A stretch of 36,185 nt of DNA from positions 1 to 36,185 of the forward strand of contig JAFYNQ010000016.1 of assembly GCA_017548065.1 (NCBI GenBank), written 5' to 3'. This document shows, piece after piece, positions 8,274-36,185 of this stretch. The position numbers and the translations under genes are program-made. The notes below the pieces were generated by a model that ran no database searches, was not told where the DNA came from, and was given only the letters and a program-made list of their open reading frames with translations. The stretch's first letter is position 1. Each line of letters opens with the position of its first letter. The DNA comes from Oscillospiraceae bacterium. GTDB lineage: Bacteria > Bacillota > Clostridia > Oscillospirales > Oscillospiraceae.

Positions 8274-8328
8274 TTTTACCCAATAGGGGCAGAGAATAAA
8301 TTCTTGATCTGACAGGAGTGCATGGGAT

Positions 8329-9177
8329 ATGATCACTATTCAAAATAAATATTTGACAGCTACGTTTAATACCCTGGGCGCAGAGCTGAAAAGCCTTACA
8401 ATGGAGGGGACAGAGTATATCTGGCCCGGACACCCGGATATTTGGAAAAGCTCCTGCCCACTGCTGTTTCCCATCTGTGGTGGACTGAAGGAGGACAAGT
8501 ACACCTATCAGGGTGTAGCGTATTCCTTGCCCCGACACGGCTTTGCCCGTACAAGAGAATTTGCGGTGGAAAGCCAAAGCGAAACGCAGGTGGTGTTCCT
8601 GCTGGTGGCAGATGAGGCAACAAAGGCGGTGTATCCCTTTGATTTTGAACTGCGTGTGCAGTACACCCTGGAGGAAAAGTCCTTGCACATCTGCTGCAAC
8701 GTAAAGAACAAGGGACAAGGTCCCATGTATTTCAGCATCGGCTCTCATGAGGGGTATTTCACCCCGGAGGGCGTGGAGGACTACGATGTTCTCTTCCCCA
8801 ATCAGGAGACGCTGAATACCTATGTGCTGAACGGACCGATTTTGTCCGCACAGCAGATGCCCATTATCAAGGAGCAGAACTACCTGCCCATTTATGAAAA
8901 ATATTTCATGATTGACACCCTGGTGTTCAAAGACCTGGTGTCCCGTAGCGCAACGCTCCGCAATCGGAAAACCGGCAGAGCCATCCGTGTGGACTTCCCG
9001 GATTGTGACTACTTTATGATCTGGCACAAGCCCGGTGCACCTTATCTGTGCCTGGAGCCCTGGGCCGGCGTGGCGGATATCCAGGGTACCAGCTTTGCCA
9101 TTGAGGAAAAAGAGGGCATTAACTGCCTGGCATCCGGCGCAGAGTACACCAATACCCATAGCATCACTGTGCTTTAA
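8329..9177 (+). CDS. Aldose 1-epimerase family protein (LacX-like)
   Basis: The 282-residue cytosolic protein has the galactose-mutarotase fold signatures: FPICGGLKEDKY, LPRHGFAR (substrate-binding His), SIGSHEGYF where the family usually has a GxHPYF-like segment (catalytic His retained), and LEPW with the catalytic Glu near residue 245. Family members interconvert alpha and beta anomers of hexoses or related sugars. The LacX-type sequence suggests a substrate other than free galactose, which is an inference. AGGAG lies 10 nt upstream; an overlapping ATG at 8322 is in another frame. The 55-nt gap before it contains no clear terminator, so it is probably co-transcribed with the preceding genes. 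Confidence 0.85.
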   Translation: MITIQNKYLTATFNTLGAELKSLTMEGTEYIWPGHPDIWKSSCPLLFPICGGLKEDKYTYQGVAYSLPRHGFARTREFAVESQSETQVVFLLVADEATKAVYPFDFELRVQYTLEEKSLHICCNVKNKGQGPMYFSIGSHEGYFTPEGVEDYDVLFPNQETLNTYVLNGPILSAQQMPIIKEQNYLPIYEKYFMIDTLVFKDLVSRSATLRNRKTGRAIRVDFPDCDYFMIWHKPGAPYLCLEPWAGVADIQGTSFAIEEKEGINCLASGAEYTNTHSITVL

Positions 9178-9192
9178 AAGGAGCGGGTTTCC

Positions 9193-10452
9193 ATGAAAAA
9201 AGTATGTTCCATGCTGCTTTTGCTGGCGCTGGTGCTATCTTTGTTTTCTGCCTGCGGCAAGACCCCGGCGCCGGTGGAGACAGAGGTAGAAGCCTTTGTG
9301 ACCAATACCCTTATTTCTGGCGGCAGCAGTGAATACGTCATTGTGCATGACTCAGATTTTGCCGCCCAGGACTTTGCTCGGGCGTTGTCCATCTGGCTGT
9401 CCCGTGCCTACGGCGTGCAGCTTGCGGTGGAAGCGGCAGGCGAAACGGTGCATCCCTATGAGATCGTTGTAGGCAACTGCCGTGACATCGCCGGGCGGAC
9501 AGCGGAGAAGCTGACAGAACCCTTTGACTTTGCGCTGAAGGTAGCGGAAAATGCCCTGGTGCTGTGCGCTGTGAACCAGCTTTCCTACGATTACTTTGGG
9601 GAATACCTGCAGCGTGAGGTGTTTGTTCCCACCGAGGAAAAGACTTTGACATTGGATTCCGAGGATAATTTCTTCTTCACAAAATCGGAGCTGATGGCTT
9701 ATACCTACGTGGATTACCTGGCGCTGGAGGGTAAACCCTTTGCCCTGGAAAAGGTATTTGACTGGAAGACCTACGAGAATGCCGATACCAGCTTACCCTA
9801 TCGCATTTACATTCCCTTTAATTACGATCCCCAGAAGCAGTACCCCTTGGTGGTGAACCTCCACGGCGCAGGTCTTCGGGGAGCGGACAATGCAAAACAC
9901 CTGAAATTTATAGACGTTCCCATGTCCATGCCGGAAGTGAATTTGGATGATGCCATTATTATTTGCCCCCAATGCCCGGAAAATCAAAAGTGGGTGGACA
10001 GCAACTGGGGCATGGGCTCTTATAGCCTTGCCAATGTGCCGGAATCCAATGAAATGAAGGCTGTGGTGGAGCTGGTGTGCCAGCTGCAGGAGAACTACAG
10101 TGTGGATGCCGGTCGCATCTATGCCTGCGGCTTCTCCATGGGCGGCTATGGCACCTGGAATCTTTTGATGAACCATCCTGACTTGTTCTGCGCCGGTGTT
10201 CCCATGTGCGGTGCCGGTGACCCCGGTATGGCAGAGACACTGAAGAACATCCCCGTTTGGGCGGTACATGGCGCCAAAGACCCCACTGTGCCGGTTTCCG
10301 GCTCCCGGGATATGGCAACAGCCCTGGAAAATGTGGGCGGCACGCTTTGGCACTACACAGAGCTTCCTGACAATGAGCATGACGTTTGGAACTACACCTA
10401 TGGCAATGCGGAGATATTTGCGTGGCTGATGGCGCAGAGAAAGGAAAGCTGA
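9193..10452 (+). CDS. Lipoprotein esterase (PHB depolymerase/CE1-like) with GH67N-like domain
   Basis: A signal peptide ends in a lipobox, FSAC, with Cys21 as the predicted lipid anchor. Residues about 40-160 (SSEYVIVHDSDFAAQDFA..., IVVGNC) resemble the alpha-glucuronidase/DUF4838 N-terminal domain. Residues about 190-415 are an alpha/beta hydrolase with oxyanion segment NLHGAG, nucleophile GFSMGG (Ser315), Asp363 in HGAKD and His396 in NEHDVW. This is the layout of COG4099/PHB-depolymerase-type esterases, which include feruloyl and acetyl-xylan esterases. It is the only clearly exported enzyme in the cluster and would act outside the membrane, perhaps removing ester decorations before uptake. 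The actual substrate is unknown. Confidence 0.82.
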   Translation: MKKVCSMLLLLALVLSLFSACGKTPAPVETEVEAFVTNTLISGGSSEYVIVHDSDFAAQDFARALSIWLSRAYGVQLAVEAAGETVHPYEIVVGNCRDIAGRTAEKLTEPFDFALKVAENALVLCAVNQLSYDYFGEYLQREVFVPTEEKTLTLDSEDNFFFTKSELMAYTYVDYLALEGKPFALEKVFDWKTYENADTSLPYRIYIPFNYDPQKQYPLVVNLHGAGLRGADNAKHLKFIDVPMSMPEVNLDDAIIICPQCPENQKWVDSNWGMGSYSLANVPESNEMKAVVELVCQLQENYSVDAGRIYACGFSMGGYGTWNLLMNHPDLFCAGVPMCGAGDPGMAETLKNIPVWAVHGAKDPTVPVSGSRDMATALENVGGTLWHYTELPDNEHDVWNYTYGNAEIFAWLMAQRKES

Positions 10453-13496: not shown

Positions 13497-14445
13497 ATTT
13501 CAAAAATGCCTTTACTTCTTCTAAAGTGGGAATGGAGGACAGCGCGCCTTGGGTCATGGTGGAAATGCTGGCGGCGGTGCAGGCAAAGGTGGTGATTTTC
13601 GTAAGCTCTGCGGCGGTTAATTCCTCCGGGGCTTTTTGGCTTTGCAAAATACCATACATTGCGCTGCCGCCGAAAATATCACCTGCGCCGGTGGTATCTG
13701 CCACGGTGATTCCCTTGGGTGCTGCTACGTTGCCGGAGGCAATGGCATTGCGGAAATGGCAACCGTCAGCACCGCAGGTGACAAATACCAGCTTCACGCC
13801 AAAACTTTCCAGGATATGCTTTGCACCTGCCTGGGGGTCAAGACCAAAGAGAAATTCCACTTCGTTGTCGCTGATTTTTACCACGTCTGCCTGGGAAAGT
13901 CCCCACAGTAGCTGTTGTCTGCAAAAATCCTTGTCATCCCAAAGCGGCAGGCGCAGGTTGGGATCATAGGAAATCAGCTTGCCCTTTTCTTTTGCGTAGG
14001 CAATGGCACGCTGGGTGGCAGTGCGTGCCGGCTCGTGGGTCAGGGACAGAGTGCCGAAATGAAACACCTTTGCGCTGTTAATAATGGAAAGATCTACCTC
14101 CTCGGTGGTCAGCTGGGTATCTGCGCCGGGCTTTCGGGCAAAGGAAAAGCTGCGGTCACCGCTGCTGTCCAATGTCACAAAAGCCATGGTGGTGAAGCTG
14201 TTGTCATCCAGCAAAACACCGCCCGTGGCGACACCGGCATCCTGCACTGTGCGGATCATCAGCTTGCCAAAAGCGTCATTGCCCACTTTACCCAGAATAG
14301 CCGTTTTGCAACCAAACCTGGCAAGGGTGGCTATAAAGTTTGTCACCGCACCACCGGGATGTGCAGCCATCGTGGGGAATCCGGTGCTGTCTGTGCTGAC
14401 ACAAGTAAAGTCAATCATCAATTCACCTAAAGTTACAACATCCAT
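13495..14445 (-). CDS. PfkB-family carbohydrate kinase (fructokinase-like)
   Basis: The 316-residue kinase begins VVTLGELMIDF and has HPGGAVTNFIATLARFG (PfkB signature 1 with the GG hinge) and ADTTGAGDIFGGS near residue 252 (signature 2, with the catalytic Asp and the anion hole). It resembles fructokinases and 2-keto-3-deoxygluconate kinases; the sequence does not separate these. GAGGTG lies 5 nt before the ATG, and the gene starts 9 nt after the LysR gene's stop, so the two form an operon. It converges on the carbohydrate-type cluster and could phosphorylate its product. Confidence 0.88.
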   Translation of the reverse strand: MDVVTLGELMIDFTCVSTDSTGFPTMAAHPGGAVTNFIATLARFGCKTAILGKVGNDAFGKLMIRTVQDAGVATGGVLLDDNSFTTMAFVTLDSSGDRSFSFARKPGADTQLTTEEVDLSIINSAKVFHFGTLSLTHEPARTATQRAIAYAKEKGKLISYDPNLRLPLWDDKDFCRQQLLWGLSQADVVKISDNEVEFLFGLDPQAGAKHILESFGVKLVFVTCGADGCHFRNAIASGNVAAPKGITVADTTGAGDIFGGSAMYGILQSQKAPEELTAAELTKITTFACTAASISTMTQGALSSIPTLEEVKAFLK

Positions 14446-14454
14446 AGTGACACC

Positions 14455-15348
14455 TCATAATAAAGTAAATTTGATTTCAATTTGCGGCTCACGGGAGAGA
14501 ATATTTCGCAAGCAGGTGAGGAATGGGTCTAACGCTGTCGGCTGCTCGCCACCATCTGCGATATTGCAGTATACTTCACGGTGGGGGAGCGGTTGGGATG
14601 TTGGGACGATCACAGTTTCTTCCTGCATGCCGTTGGCAACACTTACGGGTACGATCGCCCAACTGCCGGGGCGTTTCATGAAAAGCCGCAGCTGCTCCAT
14701 AATGGAAATGCTGATTTGCGGCTGGGCGCAGAAACCAAATGCTTCCCGATGCCACTGCTCAAAGGCGGCGCACCAGGGAACATAAACCTCCTGGCGACCG
14801 GACAACTCTGATAATGTTACGGCCGTGGTGGTGGCAGAGGCTTTGGGAAAAATCAGCACCATAGGTTCGGAAAAAATATGTATGCTTTTTACACCGGGCG
14901 CATCGGCATCTCTTGTGGTAAAGGCGATGTCTGTCAATCCACGCTGGATGCTGACATATGCCTGGGCAAGCTCTTTGTCCTGAATCTCCAGTTCTGCATC
15001 CGGATATTCCTGCAAGAAGGCTTCATAAACAGAGGGCAGCAGAAAAGAACCCAGGCTGTTTATGGAAGAAACACGCAAAGACAAATGCTGCTCCTTGCAA
15101 AGCCGGTTCATTTGGGAAACAATGGATTCATATTGCACTGAAAGGGCGAAGAAGGCTTTTCCCTTGGGTGTCAGAATCATTTCCCGGCAGCCCTTCTGCC
15201 GATAAAAAAGCCGCCCACCCAAATCACGCTCCAACGTATTCAGCCGGGTGCTTAATGCAGATTGGGAGATAAACAAATGCTCCGCTGCCCGGGTTATGGT
15301 TTTGTAACGGCAGATGGCCAAAAAGGATTCAATTTCCGCAGTGGTCAT
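14455..15348 (-). CDS. LysR-family transcriptional regulator
   Basis: The 297-residue protein opens with the LysR winged helix: IESFLAICRYKTITRAAEHL then SQSALSTRLNTLERDLGGRLF (about residues 5-50) and LTPKGKAF. The effector-binding domain follows from about residue 85. AGGAGG lies 6 nt before the ATG. It is co-transcribed with the PfkB kinase and divergent from YitT, the alanine-dehydrogenase-like gene and MmgE/PrpD across a 100-nt AT-rich gap. Such an arrangement usually means the regulator controls the divergent operon as well as itself. I see no convincing T-N11-A operator among several AT-rich candidates. Confidence 0.9.
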   Translation of the reverse strand: MTTAEIESFLAICRYKTITRAAEHLFISQSALSTRLNTLERDLGGRLFYRQKGCREMILTPKGKAFFALSVQYESIVSQMNRLCKEQHLSLRVSSINSLGSFLLPSVYEAFLQEYPDAELEIQDKELAQAYVSIQRGLTDIAFTTRDADAPGVKSIHIFSEPMVLIFPKASATTTAVTLSELSGRQEVYVPWCAAFEQWHREAFGFCAQPQISISIMEQLRLFMKRPGSWAIVPVSVANGMQEETVIVPTSQPLPHREVYCNIADGGEQPTALDPFLTCLRNILSREPQIEIKFTLL

Positions 15349-25158: not shown

Positions 25159-26052
25159 TTAGTTTTCTTTTTCTTCTTTTTGACTGGCGGTTTTCTTCGC
25201 TTTCTTTTTGCGGCAGAAGAAAACAATAATAAATGCGATGACACCGATCAGCAGCAGATAGGGACTTGCCACAATAATAAATACAAACAGCTCCACAAAG
25301 AAATTGCCGAGACCCTTCAGACTCTTAACAAATCCGGTACCGATTCGCTCCCAAACCGTCTCCGGTTCTTCCTCGGGAACAGAGTATTCACGGACTTCGT
25401 TAATGTTCAGGGTGATGGTGGCATAGTCCACCATGTTGTCATAGAGTCGGATCTGGGAGGTGTACTCCTCCAACTCTGTGCGCACATCGGTGAGCCGTGC
25501 TTCTATGGTCAGCAGGTCTTCCATGTTTTGCGCTTGCGCCAGCAGCTCCAAAAGACGAGCCTGCTCTGTTTCCAAAGCGGTGATGCGGCTTTGTGTGGCA
25601 ACGTAGGTGAGGGTGATGTTGTCCACGGTTTCGTTGCTGGAGACGATATTGCTGCTTTCCTTCACATGGGAGACAAAATTGTCCATATCCGCCACGGGGA
25701 TGCGTACGGTCATGGTAGCGCTGCGGTAGCGCCTGCCGGAATACTGGCTGCCGTTATACACATCTCTTGCTTCCACATAGCCGGAAAGTGCGGTGATCTT
25801 CTCGTCAATGGCAGCAAGCAGCGTGTCCAGGTCTTCTGTCTCTGCTTCCAGTCGCAGCTTTCGTACCAGCTTTTGGTTTTCTGCCTGGGGAAGCGCACCG
25901 CTGCCGGTGCTTCCGGAAATGTCGGCTGTACCCATATTTTCCATAGGTAAGGCATTTTCTGTGTCCTTCATAGCACCGCTTTCTGCACCACAGCCGAAGA
26001 GTAAAGAAGCCACCAAAATAAATACGATTAATAAAGTAAAACGCTTTTTCAT
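25159..26052 (-). CDS. DUF4349 lipoprotein
   Basis: The 297-residue protein has lipobox LFGC (Cys21) and the DUF4349 layout: KLVRKLRLEAETEDLDTLL, a long coiled coil around residues 155-205 (ALETEQARLLELLAQAQNME...), then DYATITLNINEV and a C-terminal membrane helix at about 246-275 with a Lys-rich cytoplasmic tail. It is anchored at both ends. DUF4349 proteins are widespread in Firmicutes with unknown function, possibly in envelope stress. AGGAGG precedes the ATG. It is first in the operon with the NlpC-like lipoprotein and divergent from ClpP. Confidence 0.87.
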   Translation of the reverse strand: MKKRFTLLIVFILVASLLFGCGAESGAMKDTENALPMENMGTADISGSTGSGALPQAENQKLVRKLRLEAETEDLDTLLAAIDEKITALSGYVEARDVYNGSQYSGRRYRSATMTVRIPVADMDNFVSHVKESSNIVSSNETVDNITLTYVATQSRITALETEQARLLELLAQAQNMEDLLTIEARLTDVRTELEEYTSQIRLYDNMVDYATITLNINEVREYSVPEEEPETVWERIGTGFVKSLKGLGNFFVELFVFIIVASPYLLLIGVIAFIIVFFCRKKKAKKTASQKEEKEN

Positions 26053-26120: not shown

Positions 26121-26222
26121 TGCAGGGATTTTTGGAAAATCTTTTCTTTGCTGCGAAAAGTGGGCGCAAGGCCCGTTATAGTATGTGCAAAGAATATTGA
26201 AGAGAGAAAGGTAGGAAATAAT

Positions 26223-26822
26223 ATGTCCAATCAGATCCAAACCGCAGAGGTGCTGTCCGACCAGTATCTGTTGAGCAAGAATCAGATCTATCTGTTTGGC
26301 CCGGTGAATACAGCCATGGCAGCACGGGTGATTCCCCAAATGCACTATATCGAACAAAAAATGCTGGAAGAAAACCTGCCTGAAGAAGAACGTGTACTTA
26401 CACTGCTCATCAACAGCCCCGGCGGCGCTGTGACAGATGGCCTTGCTATCTACGACACCATCAATATGCTGGACTGCAAGGTGCGCACCATTTGCGTGGG
26501 ACTTGCGGCTTCCATGGGAGCGTTTCTGCTGTCCTCCGGCAGCAAGGGCATGCGTTTTGCGCTTCCCAATTCCGAGATCCTGATCCACCAGCCCCTGGGC
26601 GGCGCCCAAGGTCAGGCATCGGATATTATCATTGCGGCAAAGCATATTGAGCAGACAAGAAAGAGACTCAATTCCATTCTTGCCATGAATACCGGCAAGT
26701 CCGTGGAGTGCATTGCAAAGGACACGGACAGAGACAACACCATGACAGCAGAGGAGGCCATGGCATACGGTCTTGTGGACCATGTGCTGACACCTGCGGG
26801 CATCAAAGCAAAGGAGGGCTGA
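26223..26822 (+). CDS. ClpP-type serine protease subunit, cluster-associated
   Basis: The start at 26223 is chosen because it opens the ClpP domain and has a GGTAGG element upstream; the in-frame ATG at 26079 would add 48 unrelated residues. The 199-residue product has GPVN, INSPGG (65-69), GLAASMGA with Ser97, LIHQPLGGAQGQA with His122 and DTDRDNTM with Asp171. These are the triad numbers of mature E. coli ClpP. The sequence is divergent from housekeeping ClpP, with longer loops around residues 47-57. In ClpP the barrel degrades substrates fed by an AAA+ unfoldase. Here the next gene, 4 nt away, encodes a degenerate AAA+-like protein, so a dedicated protease complex is inferred. Confidence 0.9.
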   Translation: MSNQIQTAEVLSDQYLLSKNQIYLFGPVNTAMAARVIPQMHYIEQKMLEENLPEEERVLTLLINSPGGAVTDGLAIYDTINMLDCKVRTICVGLAASMGAFLLSSGSKGMRFALPNSEILIHQPLGGAQGQASDIIIAAKHIEQTRKRLNSILAMNTGKSVECIAKDTDRDNTMTAEEAMAYGLVDHVLTPAGIKAKEG

Positions 26823-26826
26823 CCCT

Positions 26827-28491
26827 ATGGAAAAGACAGCAAGTTATTTGATTGAACCCTTACTGACTCAGTATTTTCTTATGGATGCCATCTGTGGGGA
26901 ATACCTGGAGGAGGACACCCGAAAAAATATTTACGCAGAACTGACCCGAGTGTTCTGCATTCCCGATTGGGAGGAGACAGACCGCTTCTTCCGTGCGGCG
27001 GAGGAAGAGCCTTTCAAGAGCGTTACCGACAGCGCCGCCTATGAACGGCTGTGCAGAACCATTGAATTTGCCCGAAAGAGTGGGCAAAGCCTGGAGCTTA
27101 CAGAAACAGACCGTGTGATCCTGGCAAGAAAGCAGGAGGCAATGCGCATCAAGACAAAGCTTTTTGATAAGGTGTGCAATCTCACCGATGACATGATCCG
27201 TGACACCTTGAGTAACACCGCAATGAACGGCGACGTGGATGCCATGGTGATGCTGGCTTACATGGAGTACAACGGCATCTGTGTCTGCCGTGACAGAGCA
27301 GGCGCCCGGAAGCGTCTGCGGCTGTGCGCCAAGTGGAATCACCTGTTCGGAAACCTGATGGGCATCGCCTATGACCCGGAGAATCGGGAAACCTATTACA
27401 ATACCCTGTATACCGTCCTTCGCAGTGCGGACCGGAAGGCAGTGTTCTCCCACATCTGTCGGCAGACCGGCTACAGCGGCGAGCCGGTGAAGGATCCCGT
27501 GGCGGATATGCTGGAAACCGCCTTCGGCATGAAGCTGATGAAGCGTGACACCTATGACAGAAGCGTTGCCAAGATTGCTTTCTCCCAGCTGTTGTCTGCA
27601 GAGGACAAGGAGAAGCTGCTGCTGAACAACAAGCCCGAAACCATCGGTGCCTTGCTGGATATCCCCTTTGACGCAAAGCGGGACGCCGGCTACAGCTTTG
27701 ACTGCAGCCTGGCAAGCAACATTCCGCTTCCCCGTACGGAAGAACTGGACAAGGTCTTCTGCGGTATTTACCCTGCCACCGGGCATATCCCCGGCGGCTA
27801 CCGCCCCCTGCTGGTGGCAGGCGATGACGAATACATCCCCGAGATGTACGCAGAAGCCCTGAAGGCAGGCTTCTCCGGCAGCAACAAGGTTATTGAAATT
27901 GATGCCGGCACCTTGACGGGAGCGGATTTTGCAGAAGGAAAGGAAAACTTCCTGCTCCGTGGTCTGTCGGAGACAAAGCAGACCCACACAGTGTTCCTGG
28001 TAAAGCACTGTGACGAAATGGGCGAGGCAGAGCTGGAAGCACTGGCAAAACTGCTGGACTACGGCTACAGACGGAAGTTCAAGCTTTTGGTGCCTACGGT
28101 GTCCCTGGATCTGTCCGATGTGCTTCTGGTGCTGTTTGCTTCCCGGGTGAACCCTGCGGCAAAGCGCCTGGCAAGGGAGTGCGACGTGCTTTGGACAGCG
28201 CCCATTACCCAGGAGGAAAAGCAGCGCATGATTGAGACGGTTTTTGAAAGCCGTGCAAAGTCCTTCGGCATCGGCAGCGCAAAGCTGGAGGCAGAGGGAA
28301 GAGACTTCCTGACACCCTTTAAAACGGGACAGATCGTGCTGCTGCTGGACGGTGCGCTGAAGCGTGCGGCCTTCCACAAGGAGTCGGTGATCACCGCAGA
28401 GGCGCTGCGGACGGTGTCCGATCAGCAGAGCATCCGCAGGAATAAGCGTGAATTTGGTTATCTTGGAGGTGGCTGTAATGAAGAGTATTGA
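26827..28491 (+). CDS. Sel1-like/degenerate Clp-type AAA+ protein without Walker A
   Basis: No family name comes to mind for the whole 554-residue protein. Residues about 125-180 contain a Sel1/TPR-like unit (MNGDVDAMVMLAYMEYNG...AGARKRLRLCAKWN). Residues about 320-530 follow the order of a Clp/AAA+ module: RPLLVAGDDEYIPEMYAEAL where the P-loop should be, with no Gly-Lys-Thr/Ser; VFLVKHCDEM as a Walker-B-like strand (D396, E397); LLVLFASR as a sensor-1-like strand; an arginine and WTAPITQEEKQRMIE as in Clp proteins; and a C-terminal helical lid with SVITAEAL. It probably cannot bind ATP normally and may act as an adaptor or scaffold for ClpP. Its ribosome site lies inside the end of the ClpP gene; its 3' end overlaps the next gene by 14 nt. 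Confidence 0.65.
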   Translation: MEKTASYLIEPLLTQYFLMDAICGEYLEEDTRKNIYAELTRVFCIPDWEETDRFFRAAEEEPFKSVTDSAAYERLCRTIEFARKSGQSLELTETDRVILARKQEAMRIKTKLFDKVCNLTDDMIRDTLSNTAMNGDVDAMVMLAYMEYNGICVCRDRAGARKRLRLCAKWNHLFGNLMGIAYDPENRETYYNTLYTVLRSADRKAVFSHICRQTGYSGEPVKDPVADMLETAFGMKLMKRDTYDRSVAKIAFSQLLSAEDKEKLLLNNKPETIGALLDIPFDAKRDAGYSFDCSLASNIPLPRTEELDKVFCGIYPATGHIPGGYRPLLVAGDDEYIPEMYAEALKAGFSGSNKVIEIDAGTLTGADFAEGKENFLLRGLSETKQTHTVFLVKHCDEMGEAELEALAKLLDYGYRRKFKLLVPTVSLDLSDVLLVLFASRVNPAAKRLARECDVLWTAPITQEEKQRMIETVFESRAKSFGIGSAKLEAEGRDFLTPFKTGQIVLLLDGALKRAAFHKESVITAEALRTVSDQQSIRRNKREFGYLGGGCNEEY

Positions 28492-30160
28492 GCTTTTCAA
28501 GGATTATGAAAATGCCAAGCTGGTAACAGCGGAAGAATTTGTGGAAACCCACCGTGACACCACGGTGAAATACAGTGACCTGGCATCCCGAAATATTGAC
28601 GGTATTCCTCTTTGTATCCGCAGAGACGGTGAAGGAGAACTGGAGGTCTCCTTCACCCCGGATACCCACCTGCTTGCCATCGGCGCTACCCGAAGCGGCA
28701 AGACCACGGGCTATGTGATCCCTACCCTGAACGTGCTGCTGAACAAAAAGAATAAGCCCAGTATGGTTATCAGCGATCCCAAACAGGAGCTGTATCGTGC
28801 CAATGCCCGGAAGTTTATCCGCCAGGGCTACCGTGTGCTGCTGCTGGACTTTACAAATTACATCCACAGCGACTGCTGGAATCCCCTGACCAAATACTAC
28901 AGATCCTATCAGAACTACCTGCAGGTGGAGCGGCAGGTGGAGCTGGTGGAGACGGAAGAGGGGTTCTACCACCGTTTCCAGGGTGTTACCTACAAGGATC
29001 ATCGGGAGCTTTCCCGTGTGATCAATGAACAGAGGGAGCGATACCTGGACGAGACGGAAAAGGGCATTACCGCACTGTGTCAGTCGGTAGTTCCTTCCAT
29101 CAATTCCAAGGACCCCTTCTGGGAGGACTCAGCCCGTGACCTGCTGAAGGCGGTCATTTACGGCATGCTGGAGGACAGCGTGGCCGGTGGTATCACCGAG
29201 GACAGCTTCTCCTTTGATACAGTCATCCGTATTGTGGACGGCTTCACCGATTCTGACAGCGACTACGATGGCGGTTATTTCACCAGGAGGGACATCACCA
29301 CCTCCAAGGCACACCAACTGGCAAGAAAATGCATCATTGAGCAGGCGGCGACTACCCGACGCTGCATCAGCTCCTGCTTCTGCGCAATTATGAATAAGTT
29401 CCGTGACACCGCTGTCAGACGGATCACCTGCACCAATACATTTGAAATGCAGGAGCTGGACGGGGACGTGCCTACGGTGATCTTCGTTTTCTACAAAGAC
29501 GAGGAGAGCCTGCACTATGAGATGATCAGCATGTTCCTGACCAATCTCTACACAGAACTGATCGCCCTGGCACGTAAGAAGGGAACGAGACTTTCCCGAC
29601 CCTTCTATTTCCTGCTGGATGAGTTCGGCAACCTGCCGAAATTCAATGATTTTGACAAGGTGATCTCTGCCTGCGGCGGCAGAAACGTGTGGTTTTTGCT
29701 GATCCTGCAATCCTATGCCCAGCTGAACAATGTGTACGGCAAGGAAACGGCAGACATTATAAAAGACAACCTGAATACCCATATTTTCTTCGGCACCAAC
29801 AACCCGGAGACGAAACGGGAATTTTCCGAGGAATGCGGAAAGAAGACGGTGATCGCACCCACCTCCGCCCTCAATGGCTCCGGCGAGACCATTGAGCGGT
29901 ATGAAAAGGATACGGTGGCGCTTGTTCCCGTCAGTGCCCTGACGAAGCTCCCGGTGGGAGATTGCATCGTAACGCAGATGCGTGAGGATGTGCTGTGGTC
30001 TTACTTTGAAAGAAGCTACACCTGCCCCGAGTTTGCGGATGCGGAAACCGACCCCGGGGAGTGGAAAAGTCTGGTGCGGTTTATGGATGAAAAGTATACC
30101 TACACACCCCAAAGCAAGGGGCCGGTGGCAAACCGGGTGAAGCAGATGCTGGAATTTTAA
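28478..30160 (+). CDS. Soluble VirD4/TraG-type DNA-translocase-like ATPase
   Basis: The start at 28478 follows GGAGGT at 7 nt. The 560-residue protein has Walker A GATRSGKTTG (69-78, Lys75), the VirD4-like ISDPKQELY (98-106), Walker B FYFLLDEFGNLPK (376-388, Asp381 and Glu382) and LILQSYAQL with the conserved Gln411. This is the type IV coupling-protein core. The two N-terminal membrane helices that anchor VirD4 are missing: the P-loop comes within 70 residues of the start and no hydrophobic helix precedes it. No relaxase, VirB4 or mating-channel gene is nearby. It is therefore likely a cytosolic hexameric motor working with its neighbours, acting on DNA or protein. Confidence 0.85.
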   Translation: MKSIELFKDYENAKLVTAEEFVETHRDTTVKYSDLASRNIDGIPLCIRRDGEGELEVSFTPDTHLLAIGATRSGKTTGYVIPTLNVLLNKKNKPSMVISDPKQELYRANARKFIRQGYRVLLLDFTNYIHSDCWNPLTKYYRSYQNYLQVERQVELVETEEGFYHRFQGVTYKDHRELSRVINEQRERYLDETEKGITALCQSVVPSINSKDPFWEDSARDLLKAVIYGMLEDSVAGGITEDSFSFDTVIRIVDGFTDSDSDYDGGYFTRRDITTSKAHQLARKCIIEQAATTRRCISSCFCAIMNKFRDTAVRRITCTNTFEMQELDGDVPTVIFVFYKDEESLHYEMISMFLTNLYTELIALARKKGTRLSRPFYFLLDEFGNLPKFNDFDKVISACGGRNVWFLLILQSYAQLNNVYGKETADIIKDNLNTHIFFGTNNPETKREFSEECGKKTVIAPTSALNGSGETIERYEKDTVALVPVSALTKLPVGDCIVTQMREDVLWSYFERSYTCPEFADAETDPGEWKSLVRFMDEKYTYTPQSKGPVANRVKQMLEF

Positions 30161-30173
30161 TGGAGGTGGCGTG

Positions 30174-30704
30174 ATGGCACAGATCAATGCAATGACGCTG
30201 CAGGAAATGCTGAGGCAGCAAAATACCGTCAGTATTGGCTGGCTGCAGAAGGAACTGGCGCTGACCTATTCCGAGGCACGGCAGCTGGTAGGCTACCTGC
30301 AGAAGCGTGGTTGGCTGGGGGAAGAGAAGGCCTTCGGCTACAAAGTGGTGAAAACAGCACTGTTCCTGCGGGAGCTGGAGAGAACAGAAGTGGGCGAACT
30401 GGTGGATGCGTTTACCAACGACTGCCAGATCGTGATGAATCGGCTGCAGGAGGAGCCTGCGGAGGGTGCAGATTTCGGCACCCTGGAAAAATCGGTACGG
30501 GGCGAAAGCGATACCCGGGAGGCGGTGGAGATCCTGCTGCGGCATAAGCTTATCTTTTTTTGGGACGGCTTTTACTTTTTGCGCGTGAACAGAAAAACCG
30601 TGGAAGCGTTCAAAGAAATGATGCTTCGCAAGCGTTTGATGGAGCGACGGGAAACGATGGATCGCAAGCGGCTGATAGCTTGCTTTGATGCATTGTTTGC
30701 ATAA
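30174..30704 (+). CDS. Small winged-helix protein, FtsK-gamma-like
   Basis: ATG 30174 is preferred to GTG 30171 because GGAGGT (30162-30167) is then 6 nt away. The 176-residue protein begins with a helix-turn-helix segment, VSIGWLQKELALTYSEARQLVGYLQKRGWLG (given here in part by its pattern: S-x3-LQ-x4-L-x-Y-x2-A-x2-L-x3-L-x3-G), which resembles the FtsK gamma domain that guides the motor to DNA sites. The remainder is helical with a Lys/Arg-rich tail. It starts 13 nt after the VirD4-like gene, so it may supply DNA recognition to that motor, as FtsK gamma does within FtsK. This is inferred from pattern and position. No terminator follows. Confidence 0.65.
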   Translation: MAQINAMTLQEMLRQQNTVSIGWLQKELALTYSEARQLVGYLQKRGWLGEEKAFGYKVVKTALFLRELERTEVGELVDAFTNDCQIVMNRLQEEPAEGADFGTLEKSVRGESDTREAVEILLRHKLIFFWDGFYFLRVNRKTVEAFKEMMLRKRLMERRETMDRKRLIACFDALFA

Positions 30705-30734
30705 GTTGCCGGGGGAGAAGCACAGAAATTTAAC

Positions 30735-30763
30735 TTGACCGCCAATGCAAAAAAGGATATAAT
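30735..30763 (+). promoter_or_regulatory. Internal sigma-A promoter before the sigma factor gene
   Basis: TTGACC (30735-30740) and TATAAT (30758-30763) are separated by 17 nt. Transcription would begin near 30770, which excludes the in-frame ATG codons at 30735 and 30762 as starts of the next gene and gives the sigma/anti-sigma/RyR genes their own transcript. Confidence 0.8.
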
Positions 30764-30809
30764 GCCCTTACTTAATGTATGTATGCACATGGAAGGGAGA
30801 GTGATAACT

Positions 30810-31673
30810 GTGCAGTTTACGCGTTCGGAATTTGATACTATGGTGCAGCAGCTTCTGTTTGATGAAGAAGTCTCTTTTGAGATGCTTTGCCATATTGCGG
30901 AAAAGACACTTCGCCACAGCGTGAGAAAGTGGTGCATGGAAGACCCTGCGCTGACCGACAAGGAGTGCGAGCATGACATCATGCAGGAGATTCAGATCCG
31001 GCTGATGACCAGAACCGTGACCCATTTCCTGCTGCGTGGAGAAGTGGGCGAAATCAACGATGATCCTGAAGGCTTTGAAGACTGGATCTTCAAGGTGGCA
31101 AAGAATATTAAAAAGGACTTTGCCAATGAGGCAAGAAAGCGCAACGCACGGTTTGACGGCACAGACCCCGACGGCCTGGGTGGGATCGTGGATCCCAGCG
31201 CAGAACTCAACCTTCCCGGGTTGGAGAAGCTGCAGCAGGCAGCCGGGATCGTGCTGGATGCCCGTGCAAGTGTCTATAAGGTGCTGACCTGGCTGGCGCA
31301 GGCCGTTGTGATCGTCAGTGGCAATGTCTCCAAGCTGGAATCCAATGAGATCATGCTGAGGTTCTTTGAAAACAGAACGCTGTTTGAAATGTACGGTTTC
31401 ATCCTGAAGCAGGCGGATGGGATCCCCTGGCTGAATATTTCCGAAAAACACAGAGCCTCCCTGGCGGCGGCACTGGGAAAAGAATGGCAGGACGGTGTGT
31501 CCTACGGTAATGCACGCTACAGAGATTTCTTTATGAAAAAGAACGGTGTGCCTTGCGGCAAAAAATCCATTAGTGACTGGGTGAACAGAATGAATGAACT
31601 GATAAAACGCAAGATGCAGGATGAAACAAAATCCCCGAAGGCCCAAAAGTCGGCTGACGGGAAGGAGGCATAA
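30810..31673 (+). CDS. ECF-like sigma factor
   Basis: GTG 30810 is chosen because GGGAG lies 10 nt upstream and the promoter at 30735-30763 rules out earlier starts; ATG 30783 or 30789 remain possible. The 287-residue protein has a region-2-like block around residues 55-110: CEHDIMQEIQIRLM, then EGFEDWIFKVAKNIKKDFANEARKR, matching the DxxQE...WLxxIAxNxxxDxxR pattern of ECF sigma factors. The C-terminus ends with a helix-turn-helix-like KKSISDWVNRMNELIKRKM that could be region 4. The long linker between (about 115-250) is unusual for the group. A zinc-finger-like anti-sigma candidate follows after 2 nt, which supports the call. Confidence 0.65.
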   Translation: MQFTRSEFDTMVQQLLFDEEVSFEMLCHIAEKTLRHSVRKWCMEDPALTDKECEHDIMQEIQIRLMTRTVTHFLLRGEVGEINDDPEGFEDWIFKVAKNIKKDFANEARKRNARFDGTDPDGLGGIVDPSAELNLPGLEKLQQAAGIVLDARASVYKVLTWLAQAVVIVSGNVSKLESNEIMLRFFENRTLFEMYGFILKQADGIPWLNISEKHRASLAAALGKEWQDGVSYGNARYRDFFMKKNGVPCGKKSISDWVNRMNELIKRKMQDETKSPKAQKSADGKEA

Positions 31674-31675
31674 CC

Positions 31676-31921
31676 ATGAAGCATCTGAGTGCGGAAGAGA
31701 TCATAAGCTATGTAACCATGGATGAGATGAACGAAGCATCTTTGGGATTTTGTAAAAATGTAACCGGACATATACGCGGATGCTCTGCCTGCCTGGGTAA
31801 GCTGCGCAAGTATCTGGATATCCATGACGTTTATAAAACACAGAATCCCGGTGGAGATTTCAAGGCCTTTGCAACAGAACTGTTGCAGGAGGAGTCTCCG
31901 GTTACCATGGATATGAATTGA
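31676..31921 (+). CDS. Small ZAS-like anti-sigma factor candidate
   Basis: The 81-residue protein has the motif HIRGCSACLGKLRKYL at about residues 32-47, a H-x3-C-x2-C arrangement as in zinc-binding anti-sigma (ZAS/zf-HC2) domains, with an N-terminal LSAEEIISYV helix also seen in those proteins. There is no membrane segment, so it would be cytosolic. AAGGAGG lies in the end of the sigma gene and the ATG is 2 nt after its stop, the usual sigma/anti-sigma coupling. It may hold the sigma factor inactive until a signal arrives, perhaps by way of the membrane protein next door; that link is inferred. Confidence 0.65.
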   Translation: MKHLSAEEIISYVTMDEMNEASLGFCKNVTGHIRGCSACLGKLRKYLDIHDVYKTQNPGGDFKAFATELLQEESPVTMDMN

Positions 31922-31938
31922 GATTTGGAGTGATAAGT

Positions 31939-33699
31939 ATGTGGGAGACCGGTTTTGTTCTCTCTTTGTGCGCCGTTGCGCTTTTTGTGCTGGTGGCGGC
32001 TTTGTTCCGAAATAAGCTGAAGCCTTTTTATGTGCTGTTTGCCGGTGTGCTGGTAACTGCAACCATCGCATTTTATCCGGCTTGCTATCTGCTGGTGTCA
32101 GAAGGTGCCGGTAGAGGTGCAACAGCGGTTTTGTATGCCTTTGTAAATGCCATGCGCATCTTCGCCATTGGCAGCGAGGACGAACTGCTTGTGGGCATCA
32201 CCTGCGAAGAGGCAGGTGATTTTTGGGTCGTCTATCGTGTACTGCTGGTGGCGCTGATGGTGATAGCACCCTTCTTCACCTTCGGCTTTGCGGTATCTCT
32301 CTTTAAGAACTTTTCTGCACAGCTGCGTCTGTCTCTGCTGTGGAATCGGGACGCATATGTATTCTCTCAGCTGAACGAGCGCTCTCTGTTGCTGGCAACA
32401 GATATCAGAAAAAATCACCCCAAGGCAGCCATTGCCTTTGGCAGTGTTTCCGCAGAGTCCTCCCAGGAACTGGCAGAGCGTGCGGAGAAGCTGGGAGCCA
32501 TTTTGTTCTCCAAGGGCGTTGTGGAAATCGGCTTCAAGCTGTATTCCCCCAAGCGCCAGCTGCGGTTCTTTGCAATTGCGGAAGATCCTGCGGAAAACCT
32601 GGAGCGCACGGTGGAACTGGTGGAAACCTACAAAACACGGGATAACACCCACGTGTATCTGTTCTCCGGCGAGACAGAAAGTGAAATGCTTCTTTCCGCT
32701 ATGGATAAGGGTAAGGTCAAGGTTCGCCGCATCAATGAGGTGCGTTCTCTTGTGAACCGACTGCTGTATGAGCAGGGAAATGTCCTCTTTGACTCTGCCA
32801 AGGCAGGCGTGGACGGCAACAAGCACATCTGCGCTGTTGTTGTGGGCATGGGTCGCTACGGCACCGAGGTGGTCAAGGCGCTGACTTGGTTTGGTCAGAT
32901 GGACGGCTATGTGCTGGATATCCATGTATTTGACAAAGATCCCCAGGCGGAGGCTCGCTTCATGGCGCTGGCGCCGGAGCTTATGCGCAAAGAATTTAAC
33001 GGCACCAATATTCCGGGCGAGGCACAGTACAGCATTACCGTCAACGGTGGTGTGGATGTGAAGAGCGCAGAGTTTGTGCGTCGTATTCAGGCACTGGAGG
33101 ACGCCACCTATGTGGTGGTGGCTTTGGGTGCTGACAGCGCCAATATTGACACGGCTGTGGATCTGCGTACCTACTTTGCCCAGGTGGATTGTACCCCGGT
33201 GATCAATGCCATCGTGCATAATTCTCACCAGAAGACAGTCCTGACCGGTATTAAGAACTACAGAGGTCAGTCCTACGACATCACCTTCATTGGCGATCTG
33301 GAAACTGCCTGCAGTGAGGCGGTACTGCTGAACTCCGAGCTGGAGGAGGATGCACTGCGCCGTCACCTGAAGTGGGGCAAGGAAGAGGAATTCTGGACCT
33401 ATGAGTATAACTACCGCTCCTCTGTGGCTTCTGCCATCCATATGAAGGCAAGGATCCATTGCGGCATCCCCGGTGCAAACAAGAAGGAAGGGGAGCTGAC
33501 GGTGGAGGAACGGGATATCATTGAGGTGTTGGAGCATCGCCGTTGGAATGCTTATATGCGTACCGAGGGCTATGTCTACAGCGGCAGCCGTGACAAAGCC
33601 AGCCGTAATGACCTGGCAAAGCGGCACCATGACCTGGTTCCCTTTGCTGCGCTTTCCGAGGAAGACAAGCGAAAAGACAGTAAAGTCGGCACAAACTGA
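31939..33699 (+). CDS. Membrane protein with TrkA-N/Rossmann domains and C-terminal RyR domain
   Basis: ATG 31939 has GGAG 8 nt upstream; a TTG at 31918 overlaps the previous stop. The 586-residue protein has membrane helices at about 5-23, 32-52 and 98-121. A first Rossmann-like segment starts at YVFSQLNERSLLLATDI (140-156); a second has ICAVVVGMGRYGTEVVKAL (297-315, GMGRYG loop), as in TrkA-N/RCK nucleotide-binding domains. The C-terminus (about 527-580) reads VLEHRRWNAYM...GY...RHHDLVPFAALSEEDK, matching prokaryotic RyR domains (HxxW...GW...H-x-x-L-x-P-[WF]-x-x-L-x-E). Such domains are proposed nucleotide-ligand sensors in conflict systems. It is plausibly the sensor of this locus. Confidence 0.78.
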   Translation: MWETGFVLSLCAVALFVLVAALFRNKLKPFYVLFAGVLVTATIAFYPACYLLVSEGAGRGATAVLYAFVNAMRIFAIGSEDELLVGITCEEAGDFWVVYRVLLVALMVIAPFFTFGFAVSLFKNFSAQLRLSLLWNRDAYVFSQLNERSLLLATDIRKNHPKAAIAFGSVSAESSQELAERAEKLGAILFSKGVVEIGFKLYSPKRQLRFFAIAEDPAENLERTVELVETYKTRDNTHVYLFSGETESEMLLSAMDKGKVKVRRINEVRSLVNRLLYEQGNVLFDSAKAGVDGNKHICAVVVGMGRYGTEVVKALTWFGQMDGYVLDIHVFDKDPQAEARFMALAPELMRKEFNGTNIPGEAQYSITVNGGVDVKSAEFVRRIQALEDATYVVVALGADSANIDTAVDLRTYFAQVDCTPVINAIVHNSHQKTVLTGIKNYRGQSYDITFIGDLETACSEAVLLNSELEEDALRRHLKWGKEEEFWTYEYNYRSSVASAIHMKARIHCGIPGANKKEGELTVEERDIIEVLEHRRWNAYMRTEGYVYSGSRDKASRNDLAKRHHDLVPFAALSEEDKRKDSKVGTN

Positions 33700-33706
33700 C
33701 AAATAT

Positions 33707-33731
33707 CCCCGTTCTGCGTAGCAGGACGGGG
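33707..33731 (+). terminator. Terminator of the ClpP-RyR cluster
   Basis: CCCCGTTCTGC pairs with GCAGGACGGGG (one T-G pair) around a GTA loop, followed by a weak T-rich stretch (AATTTGCTTT). It is probably a moderate terminator. Confidence 0.7.
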
Positions 33732-33805
33732 AATTTGCTTTGTGGCAGATTCCACAAAAACGGAGTGGGTAAATTGTGCAGTACGTATAAAACACGGTGT
33801 TCCCG

Positions 33806-33890: not shown

Positions 33891-36185
33891 ATGGCAAAGA
33901 ATCTGAAAAAGCTTTTGAGCTTTGTGCTGGCAATGATCATGGTTCTGTCTATGATCCCTGCTGTCTATGCTGACGAGACCACAGAGCCCGAAACAAATGA
34001 AACGATCCCTGAAGATGTTCAGTGGATTGAAATTGCAAGCGAAGATGATTGGAAGGAGTGGTTTGGCGGCAAGGATAAGTCCAAGCTCATGACCACTTAT
34101 GCCAACAGCACAGCTTATGTGAAGCTGACCCAGGATGTGGCATTCTCCACGAATGCGCTGATCACCATCGGTTACACCAATCCTGTCAAAATGGATCTGG
34201 TACTGGATCTGGGTGGCAACACCCTGACCATTAACCAGGGTACTTACAAGAACCGTATCTTTGGTGTTTACGGTGAATCTGATTTCACCATCCAGAACGG
34301 TACAATTGTAAACAATGTGGCAGTTACCTCCCAGCATGGCGGCTTGGTGCTGGTAAGCGTGGGTAACCTGAATGTTAAGAATGTCACCGTTACCGACAAT
34401 AATACCGGTGCCTTTGCCTGCAACGGTAAGATCTTCAGCTATTCTGCAAACTGTGGTGGCATGTTGGAGAATGTGACCATCACCTCCGACACCAGCAACA
34501 GCAAGAGTTCCTATAAGACTGACGGAAGCTATCAGTATGGCGCAGGTGGCCTGATTTCCAATGCCGGCGACCTGACCATCAAGAACTGTAATTTCACTGC
34601 CAGCAGCGAGACCACTGTTGAGACAGAAAAGAACCGCATTTACTACGGCGGCATCGTGGCTGCTCTGGGCGGCACTACCACCATTACCGATACCACCTTC
34701 AACGGCGGTGTTGCTTATGTCGGTGGTGCCATCGGTGCTTCTTCCACTGCTGCAACGGTAAATGTTGAAAACTGCACCTTCAATGGCAGCTTTGCCACCA
34801 ACGGTGGTGTTTTGGGCGCTGAGTATGGCGTTATCAATGCTACAAATTGTACCTTCACCGGCAGTACCGCAACCCACGGTGGTGTGGCGACTGTTTTGGA
34901 AAACGGCGCAGTCAACCTGACGGATTGCGAAATTACAAATACCGTAGCAACCAGCCGTGGCGGCGCTCTCTACGTTTATGCAAACAAGCGTGATGTTGCT
35001 ATGAATGTGGTCAACACCAGTATTACCAATTGCCAAGCTCCCAACGGCGGCGCACTTATGGTTTGGGGCAGAGGTACTGTTGCGATTACCGGCGGCACCA
35101 TCACCGGCTGTAAGGCTACTACCGGCGTGGGCGGCGCACTGTACTTCGGCAACAACGGCTGGACCAGTGGCGGCCCCAAGGCTACCATTGACGGCCTGAC
35201 CGTTATTGACTGTGAATCTGTGGGCAATGGCGGCGCTATGTATGCTACCAATACCACAGTTACCAACAAGGATACCGGTGTTGTCACCGTTTACACACCT
35301 TGTGAGATCACCATTAAGAACTCCCACATCTCCGGTGGTAAGGCTACCCAGGATGAGGCCTTCGGCGGCAACATCTACGTGGCAGGCTCCGACAGAGTTC
35401 TGTCCAACGGCACTGTTCTGCGCAGCACCGTTACTTTTGAAAACACTGTGATTGAAAACGGTGAAGCCAACAGCTGGGGCGGCAATGTTGGCATTGCAGG
35501 CTTTGCAAATCTGATTTTTACAGATTGCACCATCCGTGGCGGCTCTGTTGTTGACAGCAAGAGCTCCGGCGGCGGCAACCTTTACATGGGTAATGCCAAC
35601 TCTGACATCACCCTGAACAATACCACCGTGGCCAACGGTACTGCTGCAAACTTCGGCGGCAACATCCGTATCGGCGGCGGTACGGTGATTATGAACGGCG
35701 GCCTGATTGAAGGCGGTACTGCTGCAAAGGGCAGCGAAGAGATCTACCTGAACGACAATGCGGCTGCTGTTTTCAAGATGTTTGACGGCACCATCCGTAG
35801 CGATGCTACTAAGATTCCTGCACTGCATTCTGCAGGCAAAGGTCAGCTGGCTCTGTACAACGGCACAGTAGAAGGCTTTGATCCCACTGCATTCGTTCCC
35901 TACGGCGAGGCTGTTGCTACTGCAAACGGCGAGAATGCTTACACTGTGAAGCACCTGGCTGTTGACGGCGCTACCACCAAGGAAGGTACCTGCGAAGAGG
36001 CCGGCACTGTTACCATTGTCTGCCCCACCTGTGAGCATACCTATGTTTACGAAGAGGCTGCAGCCGGTCACGCTATCGTGATTGACAAGGCTGTTGCTGC
36101 TACCTGCACCGAAGCAGGCCTGACCGAGGGTCAGCACTGCGCACTGTGCGACTACGCTGTCGCTCAGGAAGTGATCCCCGCAGCC
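33891..36185 (+). CDS. Large secreted beta-helix surface protein, 3' end outside window
   Basis: The frame is open from ATG 33891 to the last base, giving 765 residues so far. A signal peptide (KKLLSFVLAMIMVLSMIPAVYA) predicts cleavage after residue 27. From about residue 100 to 660 the protein is built of short repeats rich in Gly-Gly-Ala, Asn and Thr (GGALYV, NCTFNGS, GGNIYV), the pattern of right-handed parallel beta-helix proteins such as polymorphic-membrane-protein-like adhesins. From about 690 it changes to repeats with Cys-x-x-Cys and TCTEAGLTEGQHCALC, a tandem module common in clostridial surface proteins. An anchor (LPXTG or SLH) would lie beyond the window. It likely functions in adhesion or glycan contact, by family resemblance only. 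Confidence 0.85.
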   Translation, partial: MAKNLKKLLSFVLAMIMVLSMIPAVYADETTEPETNETIPEDVQWIEIASEDDWKEWFGGKDKSKLMTTYANSTAYVKLTQDVAFSTNALITIGYTNPVKMDLVLDLGGNTLTINQGTYKNRIFGVYGESDFTIQNGTIVNNVAVTSQHGGLVLVSVGNLNVKNVTVTDNNTGAFACNGKIFSYSANCGGMLENVTITSDTSNSKSSYKTDGSYQYGAGGLISNAGDLTIKNCNFTASSETTVETEKNRIYYGGIVAALGGTTTITDTTFNGGVAYVGGAIGASSTAATVNVENCTFNGSFATNGGVLGAEYGVINATNCTFTGSTATHGGVATVLENGAVNLTDCEITNTVATSRGGALYVYANKRDVAMNVVNTSITNCQAPNGGALMVWGRGTVAITGGTITGCKATTGVGGALYFGNNGWTSGGPKATIDGLTVIDCESVGNGGAMYATNTTVTNKDTGVVTVYTPCEITIKNSHISGGKATQDEAFGGNIYVAGSDRVLSNGTVLRSTVTFENTVIENGEANSWGGNVGIAGFANLIFTDCTIRGGSVVDSKSSGGGNLYMGNANSDITLNNTTVANGTAANFGGNIRIGGGTVIMNGGLIEGGTAAKGSEEIYLNDNAAAVFKMFDGTIRSDATKIPALHSAGKGQLALYNGTVEGFDPTAFVPYGEAVATANGENAYTVKHLAVDGATTKEGTCEEAGTVTIVCPTCEHTYVYEEAAAGHAIVIDKAVAATCTEAGLTEGQHCALCDYAVAQEVIPAA

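Follow-up and report, generated by a model that had tools for sequence, protein, structure and literature searches.

A rare and modular gene cluster of gut Clostridia joining ClpP, a Lon-like pseudo-ATPase and a soluble VirD4, with a putative sigma-factor switch

In type III CRISPR systems, CalpL, CalpT and CalpS (CalpL/T/S) bring a protease, an anti-sigma factor and a sigma factor of the extracytoplasmic function (ECF) type together in one locus, and, according to the available portions of two reports, the Lon-type protease cleaves the anti-sigma factor upon a cyclic-nucleotide signal (PMC11417357, PMC11229360). A locus of similar composition, and possibly of similar nucleotide-signal logic, is found in the window described here (i.e., the whole stretch of 36,185 nucleotides, contig JAFYNQ010000016.1 of assembly GCA_017548065.1), which is a single contig of the 2.46-Mb, about 89% complete genome of an Oscillospiraceae bacterium. 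Seven forward-strand genes at 26,223–33,699 encode in turn ClpP, an AAA+ protein, a VirD4/TraG-type motor, a winged-helix protein, a putative sigma factor, an anti-sigma factor and a membrane protein with TrkA-N-like and RyR domains. Unlike CalpL/T/S, the protease here is ClpP and not SAVED-Lon, and as far as these texts go VirD4 and the winged-helix protein have no CalpL/T/S counterpart; neither a SAVED domain nor a Lon peptidase was found in the seven proteins with Pfam, NCBIfam and PADLOC.

The other parts also have named relatives from which they depart. The locus shares an intact ClpP peptidase with ClpXP and ClpCP and a Lon-like AAA+ module with Lon, but Walker A and the Walker B Asp are gone from the AAA partner of this operon, the docking-pocket tyrosine of ClpP is replaced, and no Lon peptidase domain is attached to the AAA protein. 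The closest named motor family is that of the CD1115-family VirD4 coupling proteins of conjugative elements in Firmicutes (234.5 bits against a cut-off of 250), whereas the motor here has no transmembrane (TM) anchor, is accompanied by no visible type IV secretion system and forms a separate clade with the pseudo-AAA protein. As in FtsK with its gamma domain, a motor of the DNA-motor superfamily is combined with a winged-helix reader, but the motor is of the VirD4 type and the reader is usually a separate protein. The RyR domain carries the His, Trp, His and Asp ligand and catalytic residues of RyDEP, which the available part of a preprint describes as a phage protein without TM and TrkA parts (PMC13232231), while the RyR domain of the locus sits in a host membrane protein. 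TIR or CARF-nuclease genes adjoin related loci, as with Thoeris and the Card1/Can2 effectors, but neither was found in the window, and the layout is known from neither Thoeris nor type III systems. PADLOC returned nothing stronger for the seven proteins than a mad8 match of VirD4 (2e-11), and the mad gene set of MADS is absent. Protease–nuclease pairs are a known immune theme in the available part of PMC12799240, and in the accessible text of PMC7159879 and PMC8195603 the words ClpP, VirD4 and TrkA have zero matches. No published system with this gene set was found among the open-access titles and abstracts listed, a scope outside which most subscription papers lie. The locus is read here as a two-unit, self-regulated conflict locus, probably anti-phage or anti-plasmid, in which a sensor and sigma switch would control a protease and DNA-motor effector; a probability of roughly 45% is given to this reading.

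First of all, the constant part of the locus is a core of four genes, encoding ClpP, a Lon-like AAA+ protein in which the ATP-site motifs are missing, a VirD4 without membrane anchor and a winged-helix protein, and this core is a rare gene cluster of gut Clostridia. It was found in one order at eight loci from at least four families, namely the window and the loci designated L017, L036, L042, L043, L062, L063 and L064. Among them, the VirD4 gene follows the AAA gene in all eight (in L043 it spans two frames, 7645–9356, either really or through an assembly error), the clpP gene lies 5′ of the AAA gene in seven, being absent from L063, and the winged helix is present in seven. The variable parts are the anti-sigma factor (5/8), the sigma factor (3/8) and the membrane TrkA/RyR protein (3/8). 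That is to say, the recurrence across distant genomes for which the first-pass annotation asked a check holds for the core genes, while its single seven-gene unit does not, the complete set having been found nowhere but in the window and in L017, where extra genes are interspersed. With the AAA protein as query, matches turned up in four of the 394 genomes searched in the order, the window's own among them (the eight-row profile returned the same four), in 1 of 398 at phylum level (the own genome), and in 1/63 and 1/9 in two other families, both being loci already known; in one further family 19/196 passed 1e-5, of which four are true homologues and 15 are open reading frames (ORFs) with a single P-loop. 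A scan for the RyR protein led to 25 loci, all from metagenome-assembled genomes labelled Clostridia or members thereof, and only L017 among these 25 (four shorter than 5 kb) has the ClpP–AAA–VirD4–winged-helix set.

The pairwise identities of the core proteins co-vary, with r of 0.979 for AAA and VirD4 (1/5040 permutations as high, which is the true order itself), 0.910 for AAA and ClpP (23/5040) and 0.987 for VirD4 and ClpP (6/720), in tests that exclude the L043 VirD4 and ignore host relatedness. A chance neighbourhood of unrelated genes would agree with the way in which the sigma and RyR parts come and go, but since the same core order stands in other genomes, chance is ruled out for the core, and with eight loci of one order, co-varying distances and a shared promoter motif it is hardly credible for the locus as a whole. 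It is held with high confidence that the locus is real, recurrent, rare and modular, with a predicted promoter logic of its own. Viral and plasmid origins were considered and rejected: no relatives of the pseudo-AAA protein or VirD4 were present among 53 and 51 pattern stretches, respectively, of viral contigs, the sigma profile found none among 3 pattern stretches, the pseudo-AAA protein had none in 50,697 phage records, and the plasmid matches of VirD4 (4,461 records) were generic, every one below 60% identity.

The pseudo-AAA+ protein (26827..28491, + strand) consists of a Sel1-like helical part and a Lon-like AAA+ module. When the profile of the eight homologues was compared with the PDB set, Lon AAA+ structures were matched at 5.8e-5 over residues 368–496 and Sel1 repeats over residues of about 117–185, and the same profile also matches the Lon proteases of relatives. 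The pattern GxxxxGK[ST] is absent from all eight homologues, and the Walker B Asp is replaced by Lys or Arg in each (Lys in the window). Since the profile is Lon-like, the P-loop is missing and the Walker B Asp is lost, the protein is regarded as a Lon-like pseudo-ATPase. Thus the missing P-loop noted at first is confirmed, whereas the label "Clp-like" has to be given up, the nearest recognised relatives being Lon proteases; the 15 weak profile matches with a single P-loop were likewise set aside, and all five of those scanned are Lon proteases. The C-terminus carries FGYxGG in six of the eight homologues (GIGFGQIGG in L063, none in L064), a motif which presumably resembles the IGF-type docking loops for ClpP and which, as a lead only, is possibly a ClpP-docking motif.

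ClpP (26223..26822, + strand) is intact, its family being certain from a Pfam match of 1.4e-64, and S97, H122 and D171, taken here by homology to be the catalytic Ser-His-Asp triad, are invariant in five of five aligned sequences. Seven hosts carry a core ClpP, and a second copy was found elsewhere in each of the six searched (all except the L017 host); in the own genome this housekeeping copy is 52% identical to that of the core. The L063 genome has one ClpP only and none in its core. In a tree of seven core and seven housekeeping copies, one branch divides the two groups with support of 91/93, with a long-branch warning for L064. The residue before INSP is Tyr in all seven housekeeping copies, and Leu (6/7) or Trp (1/7) in the core copies; this position is presumably that of Tyr62 in the docking pocket of E. 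coli ClpP. In addition, six core copies have an insertion of 6–7 residues just before the INSP strand (7 residues in the window). The changed pocket residue together with the insertion fits a ClpP dedicated to a particular partner.

The motor (28478..30160, + strand; Pfam 7.4e-53) retains the Walker A sequence GATRSGKT and LLDEF, and GAT[RG]SGKT with LLDEF is found in all seven core VirD4 proteins examined, so that VirD4 is, to judge from its motifs, the sole intact ATPase of the operon. Its description as membrane-less is upheld by hydropathy: an N-terminal TM-like segment occurs in none of seven core VirD4 proteins (L043 left out) and in 7 of 8 other relatives of the order, L006 being without it, and the window's protein shows one marginal internal hydropathy window (1.61). 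The seven form one clade (100/100), whose neighbour in the tree (99/98) is the L037 VirD4, a coupling protein from a type IV secretion-like locus of the order, and they keep the T4SS-DNA_transf and TraG-D_C regions. The winged-helix protein (30171..30704, + strand) was initially called an FtsK-gamma-like reader; the winged helix stands, while the gamma assignment is weak (FtsK_gamma 2.3e-5, below cut-off; FtsK gamma structure 0.033). It can be tied to the motor since it is fused to the VirD4 C-terminus in L064 (profile 2.7e-17), as in FtsK with its gamma domain; in L043 it is longer and lies further downstream (profile 6.9e-12).

Two other explanations concern conjugation. One is that the core is left over from a conjugative element, or is its cargo, and still aids mobilisation, as the position of VirD4 in the coupling-protein tree would allow and as would a PcfJ-like gene, of a family presumably known from conjugative plasmids, that lies directly 3′ of the winged-helix gene in L036 (239–1828). 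Against this, no transfer, relaxase, VirB4, integrase or phage family was found among the ten window neighbours scanned (15.4–36.2 kb), and reading the ORF lists of L042, L043, L062 and L063 by eye, without a family scan of those flanks, revealed no relaxase, VirB4 or integrase; the core VirD4 proteins lack the N-terminal TM segment that 7 of 8 relatives have; and ClpP and the pseudo-AAA protein are conserved along with VirD4. The core genes thus seem not to belong to an ordinary conjugative element, in agreement with the first-pass annotation, and a remnant is quite improbable. The other explanation is a decoy against conjugation, in which a soluble VirD4, derived from the coupling proteins of conjugative elements in the same hosts, would capture the incoming relaxase–DNA and, by way of the pseudo-AAA protein, deliver the relaxase to ClpP. 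The branching beside the L037 coupling protein and the retention of the coupling-protein regions after loss of the anchor speak for it, but a phage-type nucleotide signal would agree equally well with the RyR, CARF and TIR neighbours, and the decoy is considered unlikely, if less so than the remnant.

The layout of promoters suggests that the operon has two parts. The seven same-strand ORFs were confirmed, with intergenic distances of 2–17 nt or a 14-nt overlap, and with 105 nt 5′ of the sigma gene. Before clpP (before the AAA gene in L063) stands the motif TGCGAAAA-N14/15-NGTT, picked by eye, 64–82 nt 5′ of the start codon, which is exact in five of the eight loci and has one mismatch in L043. 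In the window it reads TGCGAAAA-N14-CGTT (26152..26177, + strand; 71 nt 5′ of the clpP ATG) and is proposed to be recognised by the sigma factor of the locus. This is the only exact copy in the window (36 kb; 0.03 expected), and 512,323 bases of background contain 3 exact copies, or 50 if one mismatch is allowed. The motif is present in all five loci with an anti-sigma gene and in one of three without it (L042), being absent from L036 and L064, and it presumably resembles ECF promoters. In L064, whose whole contig has neither sigma nor anti-sigma, clpP is preceded instead by a strong sigma-A-type promoter (11/12), where the other six reach 8–9/12. The sigma gene has a sigma-A-type site of its own, which in the window is TTGACC-17-TATAAT (30735..30763, + strand; 11/12), with 10/12 in L062 and 9/12 in L017, the last being weak because 9/12 sites are no rarer than chance. 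Since the promoters are arranged in this way, the layout suggests that sigma, anti-sigma and the RyR protein are a constitutive switch unit and the ClpP–VirD4 genes an induced effector unit.

Of the sigma/anti-sigma pair proposed for the switch, the anti-sigma half is the firm one. This small ZAS-type protein (31676..31921, + strand) has an HxxxCxxC motif whose residues H32, C36 and C39 are invariant in five of five homologues, and it is present in the window, L017, L062, L043 and L063. L063 was tried as a decaying locus, which was rejected on finding that its anti-sigma gene is an intact 70-aa ORF. The sigma-70-like factor (30810..31673, + strand, GTG start), with an ECF-type region 2, is present in the window, L017 and L062 and was recognised only through NCBIfam sigma70-ECF at 4.6e-5, below cut-off, and through SigL in PDB at 0.032. 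It is proposed to read the TGCGAAAA promoter.

The last gene of the operon (31939..33699, + strand) encodes a protein with N-terminal TM-like segments, seen by hydropathy, a TrkA-N-like part and a C-terminal RyR domain; its start is placed at the ATG at 31939 by the conserved N-terminus, and a TTG lies at 31918. The RyR domain is accepted from the profile, which matches RyR structures at 5.5e-6, and from the residue pattern, although the Pfam match is 0.02, and the TrkA-N match of 0.0011 is likewise below cut-off. In the available part of the preprint, phage RyDEP is reported to use His75, Trp78, His100 and Asp117 to bind 2′ and 3′ cyclic ADP-ribose and to cleave them, and several homologues to show binding but no cleavage (PMC13232231). 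The corresponding His540, Trp543, His570 and Asp587 (numbered from the TTG at 31918) are invariant in 27 of 27 RyR proteins, and the His-x2-Trp and His-x16-Asp spacings equal those of RyDEP, with a middle loop five residues longer. Because these residues and spacings are kept and RyR structures are matched, the RyR domain is probably a nucleotide binder, which agrees in part with its earlier naming as a sensor of a nucleotide or ionic signal. It may be either a signal sensor or a signal-clearing enzyme, as it belongs here to a host membrane protein and in RyDEP to a phage protein. The own genome has six TIR matches, five of them over cut-off, and all six lie on other contigs than the window's.

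A defence role is argued chiefly from the neighbours of related loci, which are mostly conflict-type genes. Beside the core of L017 stand a NADAR gene (7.7e-76), a CARF-PD-D/ExK nuclease gene (PADLOC 1.7e-24), and RyR, AAA-AAA-M41, second RyR and DnaA-like genes; L062 and L043 have a Card1-type nuclease (Pfam 1.4e-6 and 1.1e-6, respectively), and L064 has RyR, AAA-M41 and TIR-TPR genes. The L017 NADAR gene is of the antitoxin type (5326–6033), no toxin gene was noticed alongside by eye, and a second copy of the promoter motif lies 61 nt before its inferred start. A divergent sister, L032 (3895–13861), was found only by RyR and has no ClpP; it holds an AAA-like gene, a soluble VirD4-like motor, a helix-turn-helix protein, a CARF nuclease, an AAA protein, RyR and a TIR-kinase, where the AAA-like call rests on similarity to the AAA neighbour with no Pfam match and the P-loop was judged absent by eye.

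These neighbours bear also on the explanation by a stress or DNA-quality regulon, in which TrkA/RyR would respond to ions or to metabolites of the NAD type, and protein and DNA quality control, such as clearing away DNA-crosslinked proteins, would be induced by the sigma factor. In L042 a SprT-like protease that has a PcrA/UvrD tudor domain is encoded 100 nt past the winged helix of the core (13933–14505), which hints at a theme of DNA–protein crosslinks or RNA polymerase and also fits DNA–protein quality control. The TrkA-N-like domain, the ordinary genes seen by eye around many RyR loci and the metabolic or surface genes beside the window's locus point the same way. A spread as sparse as 4 of 394 genomes of the order argues against such a regulon, as do the genes for CARF nucleases, NADAR and TIR proteins in the neighbourhood of related loci, which are typical of conflict systems, and the regulon is judged rather unlikely, though less so than the decoy.

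On the preferred reading of a two-unit conflict locus, the first unit would be expressed constitutively from the housekeeping-type promoter to give sigma, zinc anti-sigma and the membrane TrkA/RyR protein. The latter would bind an ADP-ribose-type nucleotide, e.g., the product of a TIR enzyme, upon which sigma would be freed to read the TGCGAAAA-N14-CGTT promoter and turn on the second unit, that is, a dedicated ClpP, the Lon-like AAA+ protein without ATP site, the soluble VirD4 and the winged-helix DNA reader. VirD4 and the winged helix might then track or capture DNA, the pseudo-AAA+ protein might bridge VirD4 to ClpP, and ClpP might be fed with proteins met on DNA or with the anti-sigma factor itself. 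Confidence in the defence function, ligand, complex and target is moderate to low. A bolder form, a new immune machine in which a conjugation-type motor replaces the Clp ATPase, the resulting DNA-tracking protease strips proteins off foreign DNA and the whole effector stays off until an RyR sensor of cyclic-ADP-ribose-type signals frees a dedicated sigma factor, is doubtful, at little better odds than the stress regulon.

Several observations weigh against the two-unit reading. The window has no TIR gene, RyR is present in only three of the eight core loci, and many neighbours in the 21 RyR loci listed look housekeeping-like by eye. The homology of the sigma factor is weak, and its profile found none in the stretches of L036 (a 6.6-kb contig), L042, L043, L063 and L064; in the stretches fetched, L043 and L063 have anti-sigma and motif with no sigma, and L042 has the motif with neither. 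Exact motif copies also occur inside the L017 sigma gene, at a place in L064 where no gene starts, and 166 nt 5′ of the L062 sigma gene. The motif was chosen after inspection; a blind 8-mer test was uninformative, being filled by A-rich words (79/200 shuffles as good). Promoter sites of 9/12 have the chance frequency mentioned above, and relatedness of hosts enters none of the co-variation statistics. Finally, the host has three ClpB_D2-small (ClpX/ClpC-type) proteins, which could serve this ClpP instead of VirD4.

If the two-unit reading is true, the locus joins a host RyR reader of TIR-type signals, a sigma switch equipped with a dedicated promoter and the coupling of ClpP to a DNA motor, which within the same literature scope were not found joined in any system, and ClpP would work with a DNA motor in an operon without an active AAA+ unfoldase. 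The predictions for ligand, promoter and complex are accessible in vitro without the uncultured host.

As to the surroundings of RyR genes in general, a protein of 1,124–1,182 aa lies directly 3′ of the TrkA/RyR gene in 5 of the 25 RyR loci (L017:11816–15280, L018, L022, L023 and L024) and in L064 (9698–13180), and the copies scanned combine two AAA domains with an M41 protease. Big TIR-domain proteins lie near TrkA/RyR genes at L031:2101–5976 and L034:14810–17959, in both of which the ClpP core is lacking. When 86 RyR-neighbour proteins were tallied by Pfam, M41 came in 5, ABC transporters in 5 and AAA in at most 7, among the families listed (25 of 126).

In the window itself, a terminator-like hairpin follows the operon (33706..33732, + strand; 12-pair stem, 8 G-C, 3-nt loop), assigned by strength and place only, because such hairpins number about as expected in the region (10 found, 8.6 expected). 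Searches of the window for tRNA genes and Rfam families were negative, no CRISPR was seen there, and no repeat longer than 24 nt occurs between 25.5 and 36.2 kb. Among the ten flanking proteins scanned, eight belong to families of metabolic, membrane or surface type and two to none; the first 15.4 kb were read as ORFs only. Upstream the locus adjoins a DUF4349 gene (25159–26052). In six same-genus genomes compared as possible empty sites, this gene stands elsewhere in context and the core is absent, with no clean junction; in four of the six it adjoins a gene that is, presumably from its sequence, thymidine-kinase-like. On the other side, past the terminator, a right-handed beta-helix protein (33891–36185) runs off the window.

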